From: Rhodococcus tukisamuensis NBRC 100609
GTDB taxonomy: Bacteria > Actinomycetota > Actinomycetes > Mycobacteriales > Mycobacteriaceae
DNA length: 36,274 nucleotides
Assembly: GCF_001894985.1 (NCBI RefSeq)
Contig: NZ_BCXG01000037.1
Coordinates: forward strand, 1 to 36,274
Reading direction: 5' to 3'
A program made the translations under genes and the position numbers. A model generated the notes under the pieces. The model had not been told where the DNA came from. It made no database searches and saw nothing but the letters and a program-made list of their open reading frames with translations. Position 1 is the first letter of the stretch. Every line of letters begins with the position of its first letter. This document shows, in pieces, positions 1,023 through 36,111 of the stretch.

Positions 1023-1108
1023 CTTACTGAGTATTACTAAACCACTCCAGCACTACTCACCCCGGTGCGCCAAGGCCGGGGGTGCTGCAACCAGTAGGAG
1101 GAATCACT

Positions 1109-2953
1109 ATGGCTCGTGCGGTCGGTATCGACCTCGGGACCACCAACTCGGTCGTTGCCGTCCTGGAGGGCGGCGAGCCGGTGGTGGTGGCCAACTCCGA
1201 GGGCGCGCGCACCACTCCGTCGGTCGTCGCCTTTGCCAAGAACGGCGAGGTGCTGGTCGGCCAGCCCGCCAAGAACCAGGCGGTCACCAACGTCGACCGG
1301 ACCATCCGCTCCGTCAAGCGCCACATCGGCACCGACTGGAACGTGGCGATCGACGACAAGAAGTACACCGCGCAGGAAATCAGTGCCCGCACGCTGATGA
1401 AGCTCAAGCGTGACGCGGAGGCCTACCTCGGCGAGGAGATCACCGACGCGGTCATCACCGTTCCCGCCTACTTCGAGGACGCGCAGCGTCAGGCCACCAA
1501 GGAAGCCGGTCAGATCGCCGGCCTCAACGTCCTGCGCATCGTCAACGAGCCCACCGCGGCGGCCCTGGCCTACGGCCTGGACAAGGGCGAGAAGGAACAG
1601 ACCATCCTGGTCTTCGACCTCGGCGGCGGCACCTTCGACGTGTCCCTGCTCGAGATCGGCGACGGCGTCGTCGAGGTCCGCGCGACCTCCGGCGACAACC
1701 ACCTCGGTGGCGACGACTGGGATCAGCGGATCGTCGACTGGCTGGTCGAGAAGTTCAAGGCCAGCAGCGGCATCGACCTGACCAAGGACAAGATGGCCCT
1801 GCAGCGTCTGCGCGAGGCCGCCGAGAAGGCGAAGATCGAACTGTCCTCCTCGCAGTCCACCTCGATCAACCTGCCGTACATCACGGTCGACGCGGACAAG
1901 AACCCGCTGTTCCTCGACGAGCAGCTGACCCGCGCCGAGTTCCAGAAGATCACCTCCGATCTGCTGGACCGCACCCGCGCGCCGTTCCAGGCCGTCATCA
2001 AGGACGCCGGCATCGCGGTCAAGGACATCGACAACGTCGTTCTCGTCGGTGGCTCGACCCGTATGCCCGCCGTCTCGGACCTGGTCCGCGAGATGACCGG
2101 TGGCCGCGAGCCCAACAAGGGCGTGAACCCGGACGAGGTCGTCGCCGTCGGCGCCGCACTGCAGGCCGGCGTCCTCAAGGGCGAGGTCAAGGACGTGCTG
2201 CTCCTCGACGTCACCCCGCTCTCCCTCGGTATCGAGACCAAGGGTGGCGTGATGACCAAGCTCATCGAGCGCAACACCACCATCCCGACCAAGCGCAGCG
2301 AGACCTTCACCACGGCGGACGACAACCAGCCGTCCGTGCAGATCCAGGTCTTCCAGGGTGAGCGCGAGATCGCCTCGCACAACAAGCTCCTGGGCTCCTT
2401 CGAGCTCGCGGGCATCCCGCCGGCCCCGCGCGGCGTGCCGCAGATCGAGGTCACCTTCGACATCGATGCCAACGGCATCGTGCACGTGACCGCGAAGGAC
2501 AAGGGCACCGGCAAGGAGAACACGATCAAGATCCAGGACGGCTCCGGTCTGTCCAAGGAGGAGATCGAGCGGATGGTCAAGGACGCCGAGGCGCACGCCG
2601 AGGAGGACAAGGCCCGCCGCGAGGAGGCCGAGGTCCGCAACCAGGCCGAGTCGCTGGTGCACCAGACCGAGAAGTTCATCAAGGACAACGAGGACAAGGT
2701 GCCGGCCGACGTGAAGGAGAAGGTCGAGGCCGCCGTCAAGGAGGCCAACGAGGCCCTCGCCGGCAGCGACATCGCCGCCGTCAAGTCCGCGGTCGAGAAG
2801 CTCTCCACCGAGTCCCAGGCACTGGGTGAGGCGATCTACAAGGCGCAGGCCGACGAGGCCGCAGCCTCCGGTGACGGCGCGGGCCCGAGCCAGGGCGACG
2901 ACGTCGTGGACGCCGAGGTCGTGGACGAGCCGTCTGATCAGGACAAGAAGTGA
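1109..2953 (+). CDS. dnaK: molecular chaperone DnaK (Hsp70)
   Basis: This 614-aa cytosolic Hsp70 is an ATP-dependent foldase that works with DnaJ and GrpE. The ATG at 1109 sits 7 nt after AGGAGG and starts [14 protein letters not shown], the phosphate-1 loop of the actin-like ATPase. Further hallmarks are [12 protein letters not shown] (phosphate 2), [13 protein letters not shown], the linker [16 protein letters not shown], a beta-sandwich substrate-binding domain, and a charged helical lid. The C-terminal tail is acidic ([14 protein letters not shown]) and lacks EEVD, as usual for bacterial DnaK. Length is normal for the family. It is the first gene of a dnaK-grpE-dnaJ-hspR operon; its TGA overlaps the grpE GTG. 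Two HAIR sites upstream indicate repression by HspR. In-frame upstream codons (from 1082) are excluded because they precede the RBS. Confidence 0.98.
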
Positions 2954-3522
2954 GCGAGTTCGACGCCGCGCGCGATCCGTTGACAGCCGAGGGGCAGCCC
3001 TTGGACGTCGAGGTCACCCCGGCCGCCTCCGAGGAGGCGGCCGGGGCCGGCCAGCCCGAGCCCGCGGTCGACGACCTGACCAAGCTCACCGGCGAACTGG
3101 AGAAGGTCGGCACCGAGCTGGGCTACGCCAAGGCCGAGATCGCGAACATCCGGCGTAACAGCCTCGCCCGGATCGATCAGGCCGTGGCCTCCGAGCGAGC
3201 CTCGGTGGTCGGCAAGTTCCTGGACGTGGTCGACGACCTCGACCGGGCACGTGCCCACGGTGACCTGGAGTCGGGCCCGTTGAAGGCGTTGTCGGACAAG
3301 CTCTCCGGCGTCTTCGGCGGTCTGGGTCTGGTCGCGTTCGGCGACGAGGGCGATGCCTTCGACGCGGAACTGCACGAGGCCGTCCAGATGGAAGGCGACG
3401 GCGGCAACCCGGTGCTCGCGGCGGTCCTGCGCAAGGGCTACCGCCTCGGCGACCGGGTGCTGCGCACGGCAATGGTGACGGTCACCGACGGCGAGCCTGC
3501 GCCGCCGGAGTCCGAGCAGTAG
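2950..3522 (+). CDS. grpE: nucleotide exchange factor GrpE
   Basis: This 190-aa protein is the ADP-release factor of DnaK. The GTG start overlaps the dnaK stop as GTGA, implying translational coupling. The N-terminal ~35 residues are acidic and Ala/Pro-rich ([14 protein letters not shown]). A coiled-coil stretch follows ([20 protein letters not shown]), then the family core with [15 protein letters not shown], a Phe-Leu-Asp-Val-Val-Asp-Asp-Leu-Asp helix, and the beta domain ending near [20 protein letters not shown], the GrpE signature. The tail is short and acidic. Length and order are standard for actinobacteria. The dnaJ start follows 34 bp later in the same operon. Confidence 0.96.
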
Positions 3523-3556
3523 TAGAACAGGAAACGACGAGAGGAGGAGACGCCCG

Positions 3557-4759
3557 GTGAGTCAGCGGGAGTGGATCGAGAAGGACTTCTACAAGGACCT
3601 GGGCGTCTCCTCTGACGCCACGGCCGACGAGATCAAGAAGGCCTACCGGAAGTTGGCGCGGGACCTGCATCCCGACGCCAACCCCGGTGACGCGAGTGCG
3701 GAGGAACGGTTCAAGGCCGTGAGCGAGGCGAATGCCGTGCTCTCGGATTCGGCCAAGCGCAAGGAGTACGACGAGGCCCGCCGGCTGTTCGCCAGCGGTG
3801 GCTTCGGTCGCGGCGCATACCCGCCGGGCGCCGAGTACACCACCGGCGGTGGCGGTTTCGGCGGCGGCGAATTCAACATCGGCGACCTCTTCGGTGGTGG
3901 CGCCAGCTACACCACCACCGGCGGCGACGGCGGCATCGGCGACCTGTTCGGTGGGCTGTTCGGCCGCGGGGGCGCGGGACGTGGGACCGCCACCAGCAGC
4001 CGGCCGCAGCGCGGCAGCGACGTCGAGGCACAGACCACGCTCCCGTTCCGCGACGCGGCACTGGGCGTGACGGTCCCGCTCCGGCTGACCAGTCCGGCGT
4101 CGTGCACCACCTGCCACGGCAGCGGCGCGAAGCCGGGCACCAGCCCGCGGGTGTGCCCGAACTGCAACGGAAGTGGCATCGTCAGCCGCAACCAGGGCGC
4201 GTTCGGGTTCAGTGAGCCCTGCGACGACTGCCGCGGCACCGGCTCGATCATCGACGACCCGTGCACCGACTGCCACGGCACCGGTGTGCAGAACCGCTCG
4301 CGCAGCATCACCGTCCGGATTCCCCCGGGCGTGAGCGACGGACAGAAGATCCGGCTCGCCGGACAGGGCGAGGCGGGGCTCCGCGGTGCGCCGTCCGGTG
4401 ACCTCTACGTCACCGTGAACGTCAAGGCGGACAAGGTGTTCGGCCGCAACGGCGACGACCTGACGGTCACCGTCCCGGTCAGCTACGGCGAACTGGTGCT
4501 CGGCACCACGCTGTCGGTGCCGACCCTGGAGGGCCGCGTCGGCGTCAAGGTACCGCCCGGCACCGTCGACGGCCGGACCCTGCGGGTGCGCGGCCGAGGC
4601 GTGCACAAGCGTGGCGGCGGCGCGGGAGACCTGCTGGTGACAGTGAAGGTGGCGGTGCCGCAGAACCTCGACGACTCGGCCACCGAGGCGTTGCGTACCT
4701 ACCTCGAGGCCGAGAAGGCCAGCGGCTTCGATCCGAGGGCGGACTGGGCCGGCGCCTGA
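3557..4759 (+). CDS. dnaJ: co-chaperone DnaJ (type I, DnaJ1)
   Basis: This 400-aa type I J-protein delivers substrates to DnaK and stimulates its ATPase. The GTG start at 3557 lies behind the purine-rich GAGGAGGAGAC. The J domain (residues ~10-75) carries HPD at 38-40. A long Gly/Phe-rich linker follows, with repeated GDLFGG motifs. Four zinc-binding CxxCxGxG motifs come next: [24 protein letters not shown] and CTDCHGTG. The rest is the two beta-sandwich substrate-binding domains. The J domain, G/F linker and zinc region are all intact. It sits between grpE and hspR, as the first DnaJ does in streptomycetes and mycobacteria. No dimerisation oddity or truncation is visible. Confidence 0.97.
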
Positions 4760-4794
4760 TGTCTGCCCCCTCGACCAATCGGAGGTGACCCACG

Positions 4795-5199
4795 ATGCAG
4801 GACCAGTTTCCGTACCAGGCTGACCCGCCGGACCCGGACGCGCAGATCTTTGCCATCTCGATGGCCGCCGAGTTGGCGGGGATGCATGCGCAGACCCTGC
4901 GCAACTACGACCGACTGGGCCTGGTCACGCCGCACCGGACCACCGGCGGCGGCCGTCGCTACTCGCCGCGGGATGTCGCCCTGCTTCGTGAGGTGCAGCG
5001 CCTGTCGCAGGACGAGGGCGTCAACCTGGCCGGGATCAAGCGGATCATCGAGTTGACCAACCAGGTGGAGGCGCTGCAGCGCCGGGTCACCGAGATGGCC
5101 AACGAGATCGCCCAGGTGCATGCGAGCTACCGACGCGACCTGGTGCCGGCACCGCGCAACAACGCGCTCGTGGTCTGGAAGCCTCGCCACCTGCGCTGA
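4795..5199 (+). CDS. hspR: heat-shock repressor HspR (MerR family)
   Basis: This 134-aa DNA-binding protein autoregulates the dnaK operon by binding HAIR repeats; in known systems DnaK is its co-repressor. The ATG at 4795 follows CGGAGGTG. The N-terminal ~17 residues are Pro/Asp-rich. The MerR-type winged helix starts at IFAISMAAELAGMHAQTLRNY, with the diagnostic RNYDRLGLVTPHRT and GGRRYSPRDVALL. A coiled-coil dimerisation helix follows (TNQVEALQRRVTEMANEIAQV), with a basic C-terminal tail. It is the last gene of the operon, 35 bp after dnaJ, and is followed by a strong terminator. Matching HAIR sites occur upstream of dnaK and clpB in this window, so its likely targets are visible here. Confidence 0.95.
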   Translation: MQDQFPYQADPPDPDAQIFAISMAAELAGMHAQTLRNYDRLGLVTPHRTTGGGRRYSPRDVALLREVQRLSQDEGVNLAGIKRIIELTNQVEALQRRVTEMANEIAQVHASYRRDLVPAPRNNALVVWKPRHLR

Positions 5200-5219: not shown

Positions 5220-5276
5220 AAGGCCCGGTGCCGCCGTCGTTCCAGTAACTCTGGAGCGGCGGTGGCACCGGGCCTT
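5220..5276. terminator. terminator of the dnaK operon
   Basis: A long stem pairs AAGGCCCGGTGCCGCCG (5220-5236) with CGGCGGTGGCACCGGGCCTT (5257-5276), with one bulge region and a small inner CCAG/CTGG hairpin. Only a short T-rich tail follows, typical of actinobacterial terminators. It lies between convergent hspR and the NOS gene and probably serves both. Confidence 0.85.
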
Positions 5277-5292: not shown

Positions 5293-6540
5293 TCAGTTGA
5301 AGGGGCAGCCGGTGCCCTGCGCGCGGACCACGAAGTTCGGCCGGACGTCGAGGTCGGGTTCGTCGTAGAGCCGGTGGAATGTCGGCGTCAGCGACGACGA
5401 CATCGGTGGGTTGATCCACGACCAGTCGGTGGGGCAGGCGCGGCCGGCCTCCTCCTCGCGGCCGACGAAGTCCAGGAACTGCCGGGCGACGGTGTGGTGG
5501 TCGACCATGATCACCCCGGCCTCCCGGTAGCTGTGGATCACGGCGCGGTTCAGCTCGACCAGCGCCCGGTCCTTCCACAGGGTGCGGTCCGAGCGCATGT
5601 CGAGCCGCAGCTTCCGGGCGATCGTGGGCAGCATGTCGTACCGGTCGGTGTCGCTGAAGTTGCGGGCACCCACCTCGGTGCTGACGTACCAGCCGCTGAA
5701 CGGGGCGCACGGGTACGTGAGGCCGCCGATCTCCAGGTCCATGTTCGCGACGGCGGGTACCGCGTGCCACTTGAGGCCCAGCCCCGCGAACCACTTGTAG
5801 TTCGGGTGCACGAGCGGGACTTCGAGGATCAGGTCCTCGGGCACCTCGAACCACTGCAGCGGCTCGTCGGGGACCGAGATCAGCAGCGGCAGGACGTCGA
5901 AGCGGGTGCCCGCGCCCTTCCATCCCATCTCCGTCACCTGCTCGGTGAGGGCGACGTGCCACGGGTCGCCCGTGATGCTGCCGTCCTCGTTGCGGTACCC
6001 CGCGTAGCGGATGAGCTGGGGGCTGACGATGCGGAACTCCCTGCCGTCCGGGAGCGGTCGCGGGCCGATGGTGATCACCGACTGCAGGGCGCCGCCGTTG
6101 GTCGCCGTCCGCAGGTGCTCCCAGCAGGCCTGCGCCAGCGCCTCCGCGGTGACCGCGTCCCGGGCGTCGATCAGCTTGAGTGTCCGCCAGTGGTTTCGGC
6201 CGACGCACCGTGCATGGTTCCGCCACGCGAGCTTGGCCCCCACCAGCAACTCCTCGGCGGTGTGCTCGTAGCGGCCGGTGAGGGCCAACTCGTCGAGCAC
6301 CTCCGCCGCCCGTGCCGCCGGCAGGTGCGCCAGTTCCGGCTGCCGATAGAAATCGGTGCACTCGGCCAGCCGACGTTCGACCTCGGCGGTGGACGGTGCG
6401 GGCCTGCGCGCGACCTCTCGATCGCGTGCCATCTCCTCCCCGAAGGCAACTTTCACGACTGCGAATTCTCCATTCTCGGTAGAGACGTACTGCGGGGCCG
6501 ACGCGTCAGTACGCCGGGCCTCGAGAACCCAGTTTGTCAC
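5293..6540 (-). CDS. nos: bacterial nitric oxide synthase, oxygenase domain
   Basis: This 415-aa heme-thiolate enzyme resembles the oxygenase half of animal NOS, which oxidises L-arginine to citrulline and NO. Visible hallmarks: the heme-ligand Cys112 in WRNHARCVGRNHW; the arginine-binding Glu289 in FSGWYVSTEVGARNF; PNYKWFAGLGLKWHAVPAV; and VDHHTVARQFLDFV near the C-terminus, in the pterin/dimer region. There is no flavin reductase domain, as in other bacterial NOS, so electrons must come from elsewhere. The start is a GTG at 6540; the N-terminal ~36 residues (before MARDREVARR) are atypical, so an internal start at that Met is possible. The gene is divergent from a flavohemoglobin-like gene across 367 bp that includes a perfect inverted repeat near its own start. 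It converges on hspR. Confidence 0.95.
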   Translation of the reverse strand: MTNWVLEARRTDASAPQYVSTENGEFAVVKVAFGEEMARDREVARRPAPSTAEVERRLAECTDFYRQPELAHLPAARAAEVLDELALTGRYEHTAEELLVGAKLAWRNHARCVGRNHWRTLKLIDARDAVTAEALAQACWEHLRTATNGGALQSVITIGPRPLPDGREFRIVSPQLIRYAGYRNEDGSITGDPWHVALTEQVTEMGWKGAGTRFDVLPLLISVPDEPLQWFEVPEDLILEVPLVHPNYKWFAGLGLKWHAVPAVANMDLEIGGLTYPCAPFSGWYVSTEVGARNFSDTDRYDMLPTIARKLRLDMRSDRTLWKDRALVELNRAVIHSYREAGVIMVDHHTVARQFLDFVGREEEAGRACPTDWSWINPPMSSSLTPTFHRLYDEPDLDVRPNFVVRAQGTGCPFN

Positions 6541-6907
6541 GCCTGAAACCGGCAGAACCCGTTCGCCCGCAGCGGTTCTGCAGAATCGGCGGGACGCATG
6601 GCGACCGGGGGGGAGGTGGTCGGTAGGTGCCGGAACATTCGCTCGGCCCGGTGCCGGCGTCGCCCACGGCGTCGGGTGCAGTGTCGTTCGAGCCGGTCCG
6701 GACGGGCGTTGCGCCAGGTGGATGCGCTGCGGGGGACTTGTCGGGTCCGCGTCGCGCAGATTTGCTACGCGGTTGCCGGTGTTTCGTTTGCAGACCGAAC
6801 AACCACATCTGTTTCATTGGTGACGTCGGCTCGCTAGACTTCGTTTCAACCCCGCGGCGATCGCCGGGGCCCGCGACCTACCGGATACTGCGGCAGGCCG
6901 CGTTTGT
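6541..6907. promoter_or_regulatory. divergent promoter region, NOS / flavohemoglobin
   Basis: This 367-bp gap separates two outward-reading heme-protein genes. Next to NOS is an 8+8 bp inverted repeat (annotated). Towards the flavohemoglobin gene there is a candidate promoter: TTCATT (6813-6818), 16-bp spacer, TAGACT (6835-6840). Short open frames here have no RBS or protein-like composition and are not called. Confidence 0.45.
6552..6581. promoter_or_regulatory. perfect inverted repeat upstream of NOS
   Basis: GCAGAACC (6552-6559) and GGTTCTGC (6574-6581) are perfect inverted arms with a 14-bp spacer, beginning 12 bp upstream of the NOS start codon. The 22-bp distance between arms is about two helical turns, as in a dimeric repressor site. 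It could also form a hairpin in the NOS mRNA leader. No regulator is assigned. Confidence 0.5.
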
Positions 6908-8092
6908 ATGCGAACGGGGACTCCTGCGGTGGATTCAACGACAATTTCGCTTGTCCGGACGACGTTCAAGGACGTCGCCGCGGTCGAGGACGGCCCGGCG
7001 AGGCTGACCCGCGACTTCTACGCAACCCTTTTCGCTCAGAGCCCTGCGGCGCGTGAGTTCTTCCCCGCCGCAATGGACGTCCAGCGAGACCGCCTGGTAC
7101 AGGCGATCGCCTACGTCGTCGACAAGCTCGACGAACCCGAACGGATCCTGCCGTTCCTCGCCCAGCTGGGTCGCGACCACCGTAAGTACGGCATCGAGGA
7201 AGCCCACTACATCGCGGTCGGCAACGCCCTGATCACCGCGCTCAGGCAGTTCGCGGGCAACGAGATGTGGACCGAGGAGGTCGACAACGCGTGGCGCGAG
7301 GGCATCGCGCTGATCGCCTCGACCATGATCGACGCCGCGAACAACGAGGCGGGCCCGCGGACCTGGACCGGCACCGTCGTCGAGCACAAGCAGGTGCTGC
7401 GCGACGTCGCGGTGGTCCGGCTCCAGCTGGACCAGCCGATGGCCTACGGCGCCGGCCAGTACATGAGTGTGAGCGTGCCTGGCCGGCCCCGGATGTGGCG
7501 TTACCTCTCGCCCGCGATCCCGTCGAACAGCGAGGGGCAGATCGAGTTTCACGTCCGTCGCGTCTCCGGCGGCTGGGTCAGCCCGGCGATGGTCGGCCAG
7601 ACCCACCTCGGCGACACCTGGGTGATGGGCAGCCCGCTCGGCGCACTCGGTGTGGACCGGACCCAGGACCGCGACATGCTGATGATCGGCTCCGGCACCG
7701 GCATCGCGCCGCTGCGGGCGCAGCTGATGGAGATGGCCATGCGCGGCGCCAACCCGCGGGTCCATCTGTTCGTCGGTGGCGTCTACCCGTGCGACCTCTA
7801 CGACATCGAGACGCTCTGGCAGCTCTCGCAGACCAACCCGTGGCTCACCGTGGTGCCGGTGTCCGAGGAGGTCGCGAACCCGTGGTGGCACCTGGACCCG
7901 ATCCCCGAGCCGCCGTCGGGCATGCACCAGCGACTGATCGGCAAGCTCGGCGAGGTCGTCGCCGACTTCGGCACATGGGCCGACCGGGACGTGCAGATCG
8001 TCGGTTCCAACGCGATGATCCAGACCACCAAGTTCCGGCTGCTCGCCGGGGGCACCCCGGCGGAGAACATCCGGCACGACCCGCTGAACTGA
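6908..8092 (+). CDS. flavohemoglobin-like globin/FAD/NAD(P)H reductase
   Basis: This 394-aa two-part protein has an N-terminal globin and a C-terminal ferredoxin-reductase-type module, the architecture of NO dioxygenase (Hmp). Globin residues match the family: Tyr38 (B10, DFYATLF), Gln59 (E7, VQRDRLVQ) and His91 (F8, GRDHRKYG). The FAD domain has MWRYLSPA where Hmp has RQYSL. The nicotinamide domain has GSGTGIAPL at 261-269. The final CG motif of the family is replaced by VGSNAM, so the usual Cys is missing. An ATG at 6908 is used here; a GTG at 6929 (VDSTTISL) sits better behind GGGGA and may be the real start. Divergence from NOS suggests either NO detoxification or electron supply to NOS. 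Its reductase half resembles the protein at 22616-23371. Confidence 0.88.
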   Translation: MRTGTPAVDSTTISLVRTTFKDVAAVEDGPARLTRDFYATLFAQSPAAREFFPAAMDVQRDRLVQAIAYVVDKLDEPERILPFLAQLGRDHRKYGIEEAHYIAVGNALITALRQFAGNEMWTEEVDNAWREGIALIASTMIDAANNEAGPRTWTGTVVEHKQVLRDVAVVRLQLDQPMAYGAGQYMSVSVPGRPRMWRYLSPAIPSNSEGQIEFHVRRVSGGWVSPAMVGQTHLGDTWVMGSPLGALGVDRTQDRDMLMIGSGTGIAPLRAQLMEMAMRGANPRVHLFVGGVYPCDLYDIETLWQLSQTNPWLTVVPVSEEVANPWWHLDPIPEPPSGMHQRLIGKLGEVVADFGTWADRDVQIVGSNAMIQTTKFRLLAGGTPAENIRHDPLN

Positions 8093-22615: not shown

Positions 22616-23371
22616 TCAGCCGACCTGAATCGACCCGGCCGGGGTACCGGTGTCGACCAGCGCGCGCACGGTGGCGCGGACCATGGCGGGCGAGCCGCAG
22701 ATCAGCACCTGGTGCGAGGTGTAGCCGCCGTAGGAGCTGACCACCTCGGCGAGCGTGCCCTGGATTAGGTCGTCCTCGTCGAAACCGATGTCCACCCGGG
22801 TGCGTTCGTGCCACTCGTCGTGCCACTCCGGGTCCTCGACCTGCTCGACGACGGGGATGACGGTCAGCCAGTCGAGTTGCTGGGCCAGGATCCACAGCAT
22901 GTCGGAGGCGTAGAGGTCGCGGGGGTGCCGGGCGCCGACGAACAGGAAGACCAGCGGCGGGTTGGGCTTGCGGGTGAGCTCGAGCAGCATCGCGCGCAGC
23001 GGCGCGAGCCCCGTCCCGCCCGCGACCATGATGACCTCTTCGGTGCTGTCGTCGATGTTGAGCCGGCCGGTGGGCGCGCTGATCTGCCACTGGTCGCCGG
23101 GGGCGGTGTCGGCGACGATCGACCCGCTGACCCAGCCCGCCGGCACCGTCCGGACGTGGAACTCGAGCTTGCCGTCGAGCGACGGCGGCAGTGCGGGGGA
23201 GAGCCGACGACTGACGGCGGGCATCTGCGGGACGACGACGGAGACGGACTGGCCCGCGGTGAACGGGACGAACTCGCCCTCGAGCCGGATCACGGCCAGG
23301 TCCTGCCGGAGTCGATGGTGCTGGACCACCGTCGCAAGCCAACCCTGGTCCTGTTCCACGTCCGCGCTCAT
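22616..23371 (-). CDS. orphan FAD/NAD(P)H ferredoxin-reductase-type protein
   Basis: The protein has 251 aa from an ATG at 23371; the longer open frame to 23836 covers the opposite ligase gene and is rejected. It is a reductase module alone: FAD domain with FTAGQSVSVVVPQ and RRLSPALPP, nicotinamide domain with AGGTGLAPLRAML, and the C-terminal motif ICGSPAMV with the family Cys. It strongly resembles the reductase half of the flavohemoglobin-like protein at 6908: both have LSPA-IP/LP, EFHVR-V-GWVS, and LYxxxxLWxLxQ. The globin domain is absent. Possible electron acceptors are a heme protein, an oxygenase or the NOS of this window. It is divergent from an acyl-CoA ligase across a 159-bp promoter region. 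Confidence 0.88.
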   Translation of the reverse strand: MSADVEQDQGWLATVVQHHRLRQDLAVIRLEGEFVPFTAGQSVSVVVPQMPAVSRRLSPALPPSLDGKLEFHVRTVPAGWVSGSIVADTAPGDQWQISAPTGRLNIDDSTEEVIMVAGGTGLAPLRAMLLELTRKPNPPLVFLFVGARHPRDLYASDMLWILAQQLDWLTVIPVVEQVEDPEWHDEWHERTRVDIGFDEDDLIQGTLAEVVSSYGGYTSHQVLICGSPAMVRATVRALVDTGTPAGSIQVG

Positions 23372-33451: not shown

Positions 33452-33472
33452 CTTGAGCGGAACAGACTCAAC
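33452..33472. promoter_or_regulatory. HAIR element upstream of clpB
   Basis: The sequence is CTTGAGC, seven bases, ACTCAAC. It matches the HspR consensus CTTGAGT-N7-ACTCAAG closely and mirrors the dnaK sites. A possible promoter follows: GTGACA (33492-33497), 18 bp, TAGGCT (33516-33521). HspR is known to control clpB in Streptomyces and mycobacteria. Confidence 0.82.
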
Positions 33473-33558
33473 TCTTGGTGTGTTGGGACATGTGACAGCG
33501 CCGACCGGCCACACCTAGGCTCGACGGCGACGACATACGTCTTCCGTTAGGGGTGACC

Positions 33559-36111
<2,553 letters not shown>

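Follow-up and report, generated by a model that had tools for sequence, protein, structure and literature searches.

Several described systems resemble the locus analysed here. In Bacillus, Staphylococcus and Deinococcus, nitric oxide (NO) synthase (NOS) consists of a single oxygenase domain. The type I flavohemoglobin Hmp is marked by Lys-F7, Glu-H23 and the RxYS FAD motif, and Lys-F7 and Glu-H23 belong to its proximal charge relay. In Staphylococcus aureus NOS acts together with Hmp, and the authors of that work hold nitrite, not nitrate, as the effector (PubMed Central article PMC5539425). The NOS of Synechococcus PCC 7335 (SyNOS) associates a NOS oxygenase with a globin and an FAD/NAD(P)H reductase, and its globin domain is reported to oxidise NO to nitrate (PMC12922734; also PMC6104048). 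For the type II flavohemoglobin Rv0385 of Mycobacterium tuberculosis, disulfide reductase and D-lactate activities have been described (PMC8883573). Here we analyse a 36,274-nucleotide stretch of Rhodococcus tukisamuensis NBRC 100609 (contig NZ_BCXG01000037.1; the whole stretch is called the window below), carried by the 5.49 Mb genome of a Rhodococcus-type actinobacterium. In the window, a NOS gene and a gene for a predicted type II flavohemoglobin, FHb1, diverge from a common intergenic region of 367 bases between the open reading frames (ORFs) as called:

5293..6540, minus strand: predicted bacterial NO synthase, oxygenase domain only; 415 aa; PF02898, 463.4 bits
6541..6907: divergent intergenic region; no HspR (HAIR) box found
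6908..8092, plus strand: predicted type II flavohemoglobin FHb1 with globin, FAD-binding and NAD-binding domains (Pfam); 394 aa from ATG 6908

The best explanation is that the two genes form a NOS-globin system whose globin would consume or oxidise NOS-derived NO; we put the probability of this reading at roughly 0.6. NO would then be the substrate shared by the two proteins. The arrangement is like SyNOS in bringing together a NOS oxygenase, a globin and an FAD/NAD(P)H reductase. It differs in that the predicted parts are encoded by two separate divergent genes, with an FAD-only reductase fused to the globin and not to NOS; moreover, neither NOS nor FHb1 contains a C2 or diflavin part (Pfam). 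The window NOS shares its single-domain build and its catalytic Cys and Glu with the enzymes of Bacillus, Staphylococcus and Deinococcus, whereas its neighbour is a globin. The pairing would be a variation on the known coupling of NOS with NO dioxygenase.

The ORF on the minus strand is predicted to encode a complete bacterial NOS oxygenase. Its match to NO_synthase (E 6.3e-139; cut-off 22.7 bits) is the single Pfam domain of the protein, which has no fused reductase domain. The heme-ligand Cys112 lies within ARCVGRNHW, and the substrate residue Glu289 within YVSTEVGARN. The protein aligns with chain 8uft_A (NOS 3) at 373 bits. Ile158 occupies the place of the mammalian NO-release Val; the significance of Ile there is treated in the Discussion of PMC6104048. 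Shorter starts are available at GTG 6456 and ATG 6432, and the closest NOS among named records are those of R. maanshanensis, R. oryzae (85%) and R. spelaei (82%). An earlier note on this DNA had described a globin-FAD-NAD(P)H protein and, divergent from it, a complete NOS oxygenase with heme Cys112 and Glu289; the two ORFs and their Pfam domains agree with that description, and both residues are in place.

FHb1 contains the Pfam domains Globin, FAD_binding_6 and NAD_binding_1; an alternative start at GTG 6929 would give 387 aa. In an alignment of E. coli Hmp with 97 family sequences, window FHb1 among these, the protein retains Tyr-B10 (Y38), Phe-CD1 (F52), Gln-E7 (Q59), His-F8 (H91) and Tyr-G5 (Y101). 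It thus resembles type I Hmp in domain order and in Tyr-B10, Gln-E7, His-F8 and Tyr-G5, and to this extent the Hmp globin residues named in the earlier note are present. Two others depart: Asp90 stands at the place of Lys-F7 (Asp in 97/97 aligned family sequences), and Ala144 at that of Glu-H23 (Ala in 93/97). In addition, FHb1 reads R198-Y-L-S201 (RYLS) where Hmp has RQYS, lacking RxYS, and its end is shorter than in Hmp. Against the Hmp equivalog model NF009805 it reaches 100.1 bits, far below the cut-off of 432. The motif D(x)8GxxP, given as a type II flavohemoglobin motif in PMC8883573, lies at residues 256-268 and is present in 77 of the 97 family sequences. Because the Hmp residues depart, the Hmp-model score is low and D(x)8GxxP is present, we file FHb1 by its sequence as a type II flavohemoglobin of the Rv0385 kind. 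The score, together with the missing Lys-F7, Glu-H23 and RxYS, rules out a canonical Hmp, and the Hmp-like label of the earlier note is replaced accordingly.

FHb1 shares the globin-FAD-NAD order, the departures from the Hmp residues and D(x)8GxxP with type II flavohemoglobins such as Rv0385 and FhbII of M. smegmatis. Unlike these, it lies beside NOS and falls in a Rhodococcus/Nocardia FHb1 clade (Rv0385 itself is outside the alignment). The flavohemoglobin tree, built like the other tree by a quick method without bootstrap, resolves three groups, FHb1, FHb2 and Mycobacterium-like, and all 30 different NOS-adjacent family flavohemoglobins belong to FHb1. Tyr-B10, Gln-E7 and Tyr-G5 are kept in all 44 NOS-linked 3/3 globins (30/30, 12/12 and 2/2 by group). 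FHb1 retains Tyr-B10 and Gln-E7, residues that several Mycobacterium-like relatives have lost; among the NOS-free Mycobacterium-like proteins, Tyr-B10 is found in 12/18 and Gln-E7 in 10/18. We considered these distal residues as a mark of partnership with NOS and rejected the idea, since they are equally kept in NOS-free FHb1; they are permissive, not diagnostic. In its own genome FHb1 is the sole PF00042 globin found by profile search (a lower bound), so that no canonical Hmp was found there.

The earlier note had proposed a survey of the adjacency in related genomes and named a lack of co-occurrence as a refutation. The survey did not give that outcome: the divergent pair recurs within the family, and NOS genes with globin neighbours occur beyond it as well. 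We compared 64 NOS loci of the family with 70 loci outside it, counting a globin as a neighbour if it lies within 2 kb of NOS. The loci outside the family comprise 60 of 70 genome NOS places, pieces of a single gene being counted together, as well as 10 of 14 plasmid records. Type II flavohemoglobins served to build the globin profile, and NOS neighbours the profile for truncated globins, and other globins may escape them; NOS-adjacent genes were called by an ad hoc base-composition rule, and some calls may be wrong. NOS is present in 63 of 401 family genomes, and 29 of these 63 carry the divergent NOS-FHb1 pair, a geometry seen in Rhodococcus, Rhodococcoides and Antrihabitans. Altogether, NOS has a globin neighbour by this criterion at 37 of the 64 family loci (loci, genomes and their sets are cited by our handles): 29 divergent FHb1, one convergent flavohemoglobin (L126), six truncated hemoglobins, and one NOS fragment beside FHb1 (L095). 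In R. jostii, R. wratislaviensis and R. koreensis the truncated hemoglobin is 6 bp from the NOS domain.

The L095 fragment, from Antrihabitans stalactiti (G046), is a NOS remnant that matches residues 31-270 at 55% identity and adjoins FHb1 within an hspR-clpB island. The same genome holds a full-length NOS elsewhere (L094), with no globin found within 2 kb.

Outside the family, a globin was found within 2 kb of NOS at 14 of the 70 loci, in several geometries. At seven loci of one genus (g45), and on a named Micromonospora zamorensis plasmid that resembles them, the flavohemoglobin is directly downstream of NOS on the same strand; on the plasmid the annotated NOS and flavohemoglobin genes overlap by one base. 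The flavohemoglobin is upstream on the same strand at L226 and on the Embleya plasmid L289, and convergent with NOS at L271. At L230 and L249 the neighbour is a single-domain globin, at L268 a truncated hemoglobin. On a Rhodococcus plasmid among these 70 loci (L281), no globin was found at NOS. Pfam confirmed the globin domains in nine of nine neighbours searched (L252, L280, L289, L226, L271, L249, L230, L247 and the truncated hemoglobin of family locus L128); the L247 neighbour lies just beyond 2 kb, and that of L268 is outside the Pfam set. The NOS-side flavohemoglobins outside the family score 161-326 bits against window FHb1 and at most 60 against Hmp (L289 unscored), while the single-domain globins score 44-46 bits against FHb1 and have no match to Hmp.

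Globins are also concentrated around NOS. Over the 134 loci, 52 globin domain hits (two of them a single degraded remnant, L111) fall in 531 kb near NOS, versus 17 in 1,610 kb farther out; the 70 loci outside the family give 14 hits near NOS and 1 farther out. In 20 genomes, a selected and not a random set, PF00042 matched 40 times in total, about two per several-Mb genome. These counts are lower bounds, because the search of G534 returned one place on another contig and missed the L271 flavohemoglobin (Pfam 27.5 bits). With about two PF00042 globins per several Mb, chance adjacency to NOS should be rare. On a NOS tree of 133 rows (L247 and L111 coded as having a globin, L095 omitted), the presence of a globin neighbour requires 15 gains or losses, at least 7 of which are forced by branches with support of at least 95. 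Judged from these gene orders, the NOS-globin link exceeds inherited synteny, and the adjacency in the window is one case of a wider association between NOS and globins that recurs in Actinobacteria. We found no description of this actinobacterial gene linkage among the open-licence PMC papers listed, most of them judged by title.

At one Rhodococcus locus the class of the globin itself has changed. In one Rhodococcus group NOS converges with a truncated hemoglobin, and in its member L131 (R. koreensis) the two domains are 6 bp apart. L126 matches L131 at 94% over about 10 kb, up to a point just past NOS, and again at 95% farther out. The segment separating these blocks is about 1.0 kb long in L131 and contains the truncated hemoglobin, minus about 110 bp at the far end; in L126 it is about 4.6 kb long, with a convergent type II flavohemoglobin and no truncated hemoglobin match. 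The two remaining flavohemoglobin copies of the L126 genome sit elsewhere. Comparison of the two sequences thus indicates that a truncated hemoglobin was exchanged for a flavohemoglobin at a syntenic NOS locus.

In the mechanism we propose, NOS would produce NO from arginine with electrons from a reductase encoded elsewhere. The heme of the type II flavohemoglobin would bind O2 and react it with NOS-derived NO, most simply by dioxygenation to nitrate, and the FAD domain of FHb1 would re-reduce its own heme from NAD(P)H. The action of the globin would spare NOS from inhibition by NO and curb NO toxicity, and arginine nitrogen would perhaps be returned as nitrate. The common denominator of the NOS neighbours, a globin and not a reductase, favours such handling of NO (or O2). 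Tentatively, and with a good deal of doubt, the actinobacterial genes might form a modular version of the cyanobacterial globin-NOS, split over separate genes, in which NOS repeatedly recruits any available globin, be it a type II flavohemoglobin, a single-domain globin or a truncated hemoglobin, so that the physiological product of NOS would be nitrate or globin-held NO and not free NO.

Several observations weigh against a two-gene NOS-globin system. Flavohemoglobins (E at most 1e-60) occur in 326 of 401 family genomes, including all 63 with NOS; the protein is far commoner than NOS in the family, and since it is common in genomes without NOS it has a job of its own. FHb1 keeps Tyr-B10 and Gln-E7 in 23 of 23 cases without NOS, and Lys-F7 and Glu-H23 are absent from all flavohemoglobin groups. 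In 27 of the 63 family genomes with full NOS, no globin was found within 2 kb of it, and these 27 include all 21 genomes of the genus g22 (Nocardia group). The NOS-adjacent truncated hemoglobin of L111 is a degraded remnant, and those of L112 and L117 lie about 5.5 kb from NOS. The 22 NOS-FHb1 intergenic regions yielded no shared regulatory motif. The window's genome has one truncated hemoglobin, far off on another contig, which could handle NO instead. Furthermore, the NO dioxygenase activity reported for Rv0385 is small and its nitrosative protection negligible (PMC3820574). Because FHb1 is placed in the same type II class, detoxification is not to be assumed.

The pair borders a heat-shock gene group, which supplies the setting for one of the alternatives:

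948-968: HAIR-like box before dnaK
1082-5199: dnaK-grpE-dnaJ-hspR group, hspR being the last gene
4795..5199, plus strand: hspR, heat-shock repressor; NCBIfam NF047375, 143.8 bits (cut-off 105)
5225..5271, plus strand: terminator-like hairpin of 20 pairs, between hspR and convergent NOS
22616..23371, minus strand: RED, globin-less FAD/NAD reductase; NAD_binding_1; 42% identity to the flavohemoglobin reductase half
33452-33472: HAIR-like box upstream of clpB
33553..36111, plus strand: clpB, far end of the heat-shock island

In other genera the island is fuller (dnaK, dnaJ, hspR, NOS, FHb1, RED, FHb2 and clpB, not all in each genome) and RED adjoins FHb1; in the window the two are about 14 kb apart, with acyl-CoA ligase, alcohol dehydrogenase, transport and oxidoreductase genes between them. 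A chance insertion of NOS into a dnaK-grpE-dnaJ-hspR-FHb1-RED-FHb2-clpB island, or its loss from one, might account for the pair, the adjacency of NOS to FHb1 in Rhodococcus being functionless. The flavohemoglobin indeed follows hspR directly in two NOS-free genomes of the same genus (G003 and G005) and at nine Nocardia-group loci where NOS is absent from that position, and hspR is still within 5 kb of 17 of the 29 divergent pairs. Since the flavohemoglobin is the commoner gene and stands beside hspR in NOS-free relatives, an older island has probably either gained or lost NOS. That the adjacency is without function is nevertheless unlikely: 12 of the 29 pairs lack any hspR match within the sequence read, L096 retains NOS and FHb1 with hspR, RED and clpB absent from the 19.5 kb read, other genera pair NOS with globins, and the globin was swapped at one NOS locus. 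Another possibility is that the reductase half of FHb1 (or RED) feeds electrons to the NOS heme, the pair being NOS plus its reductase. NOS has no reductase domain of its own, and the reductase half of FHb1 resembles oxygenase-serving reductases, with BenC and a P450 reductase among its best matches. The NOS of Sorangium is said to be self-sufficient, which we count on the same side, and B. subtilis NOS has flavodoxin partners. In the window's genome a single PF00258 flavodoxin domain was found over the cut-off, and since it sits inside a 1427-residue open frame, no stand-alone counterpart was found. However, truncated and single-domain globins that carry no reductase also adjoin NOS, and most of the family retains relatives of FHb1 in the absence of NOS. 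We also listed the flanks of globin-less NOS (99 proteins from 59 representative loci, 132 families): no FAD/NAD reductase family is among the 25 commonest of the 132, led by a methyltransferase (7), whereas two Flavodoxin_5 proteins are found, as well as three P450s. Both the reductase-free globins and this list favour NO handling over electron supply, and a donor role for FHb1 or RED appears quite unlikely. The earlier note had offered make-and-detoxify or electron donation; the reductase-free globins favour the NO-handling side of the first, although the protein is not Hmp, and the second is the less probable one for this pair.

A type II flavohemoglobin might also act as a disulfide/mycothione or D-lactate oxidoreductase, with NOS belonging to the same oxidative-stress response and the globin not touching NO. 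The heat-shock neighbourhood, the D(x)8GxxP motif of FHb1 and the activities given for MtbFHb in PMC8883573 speak for this. Single-domain and truncated globins beside NOS, however, have no flavin domain for such activity. In addition, two cysteines are implicated in MtbFHb, Cys289 and Cys360 being the reductase-domain cysteines of Rv0385, whereas in the FHb1 set only one cysteine column is widely kept (C295, 77/97) and no second, Rv0385 lying outside this alignment. A stress redox role apart from NO is thus very unlikely, and the two-gene NOS-globin system remains the preferred explanation.

Concerning regulation, TAGACT at 6835-6840 lies within a block common to relatives in their alignment, and judged from the sequence it would be a promoter -10-like box for FHb1. 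Among the 22 NOS-FHb1 intergenic regions, 10-mers containing CTAGACT occur in up to 6, and exact palindromes common to all were sought and not found. A pattern search for the HAIR box was negative in the NOS-FHb1 promoter region, and HspR control of this region is not supported by the sequence. The two HAIR-like boxes listed above (2-3 mismatches) compare with a shuffle mean of 0.6, and 16 of 100 shuffles had at least two. Likewise, two terminator-like sites, one of them the hairpin with the 20-pair stem, were found in the region versus 1.6 expected in shuffles. Membership of NOS in the hspR transcription unit was considered as a complete account and rejected, because NOS is convergent to hspR, the 20-pair hairpin lies between them and no HAIR box was found.

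Other observations concern NOS loci elsewhere and the flavodoxin-bearing frame. At six loci of one genus (g62; L239, L240, L246, L250, L278 and L279), the protein encoded after NOS on the same strand, represented at L239 by a Flavodoxin_5 protein, is a candidate electron donor. On two alphaproteobacterial plasmids, of Jannaschia (L286) and Novosphingobium (L287), NOS comes directly after a radical SAM gene with a four-base overlap. L260-L263, L265, L276 and L277 carry NOS paralogs whose PF02898 match ends near 300-324, a second, divergent NOS-like family; the same-strand gene family preceding them is probably Methyltransf_4 (TrmB-like). The PF00258 domain of the window's genome is at G000:C26:41564-41959; its 1427-residue frame also weakly matches the flavohemoglobin reductase half and is perhaps a fused assimilatory reductase.

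The purpose of bacterial NOS and the fate of its NO are an old question, and a recurrent partner together with a globin swap would make it testable as a two-component system. The function of type II flavohemoglobins is disputed, and the NOS-globin pairing provides a concrete candidate role for them. If the genes do form a split counterpart of the cyanobacterial enzyme, the single FAD domain of the flavohemoglobin version may serve to reduce NOS as well as the globin, and type II flavohemoglobins would then have a function that is at present missing for them. Our analysis also suggests that the NO output of NOS-bearing soil actinobacteria may need to be measured as nitrate, not as NO.

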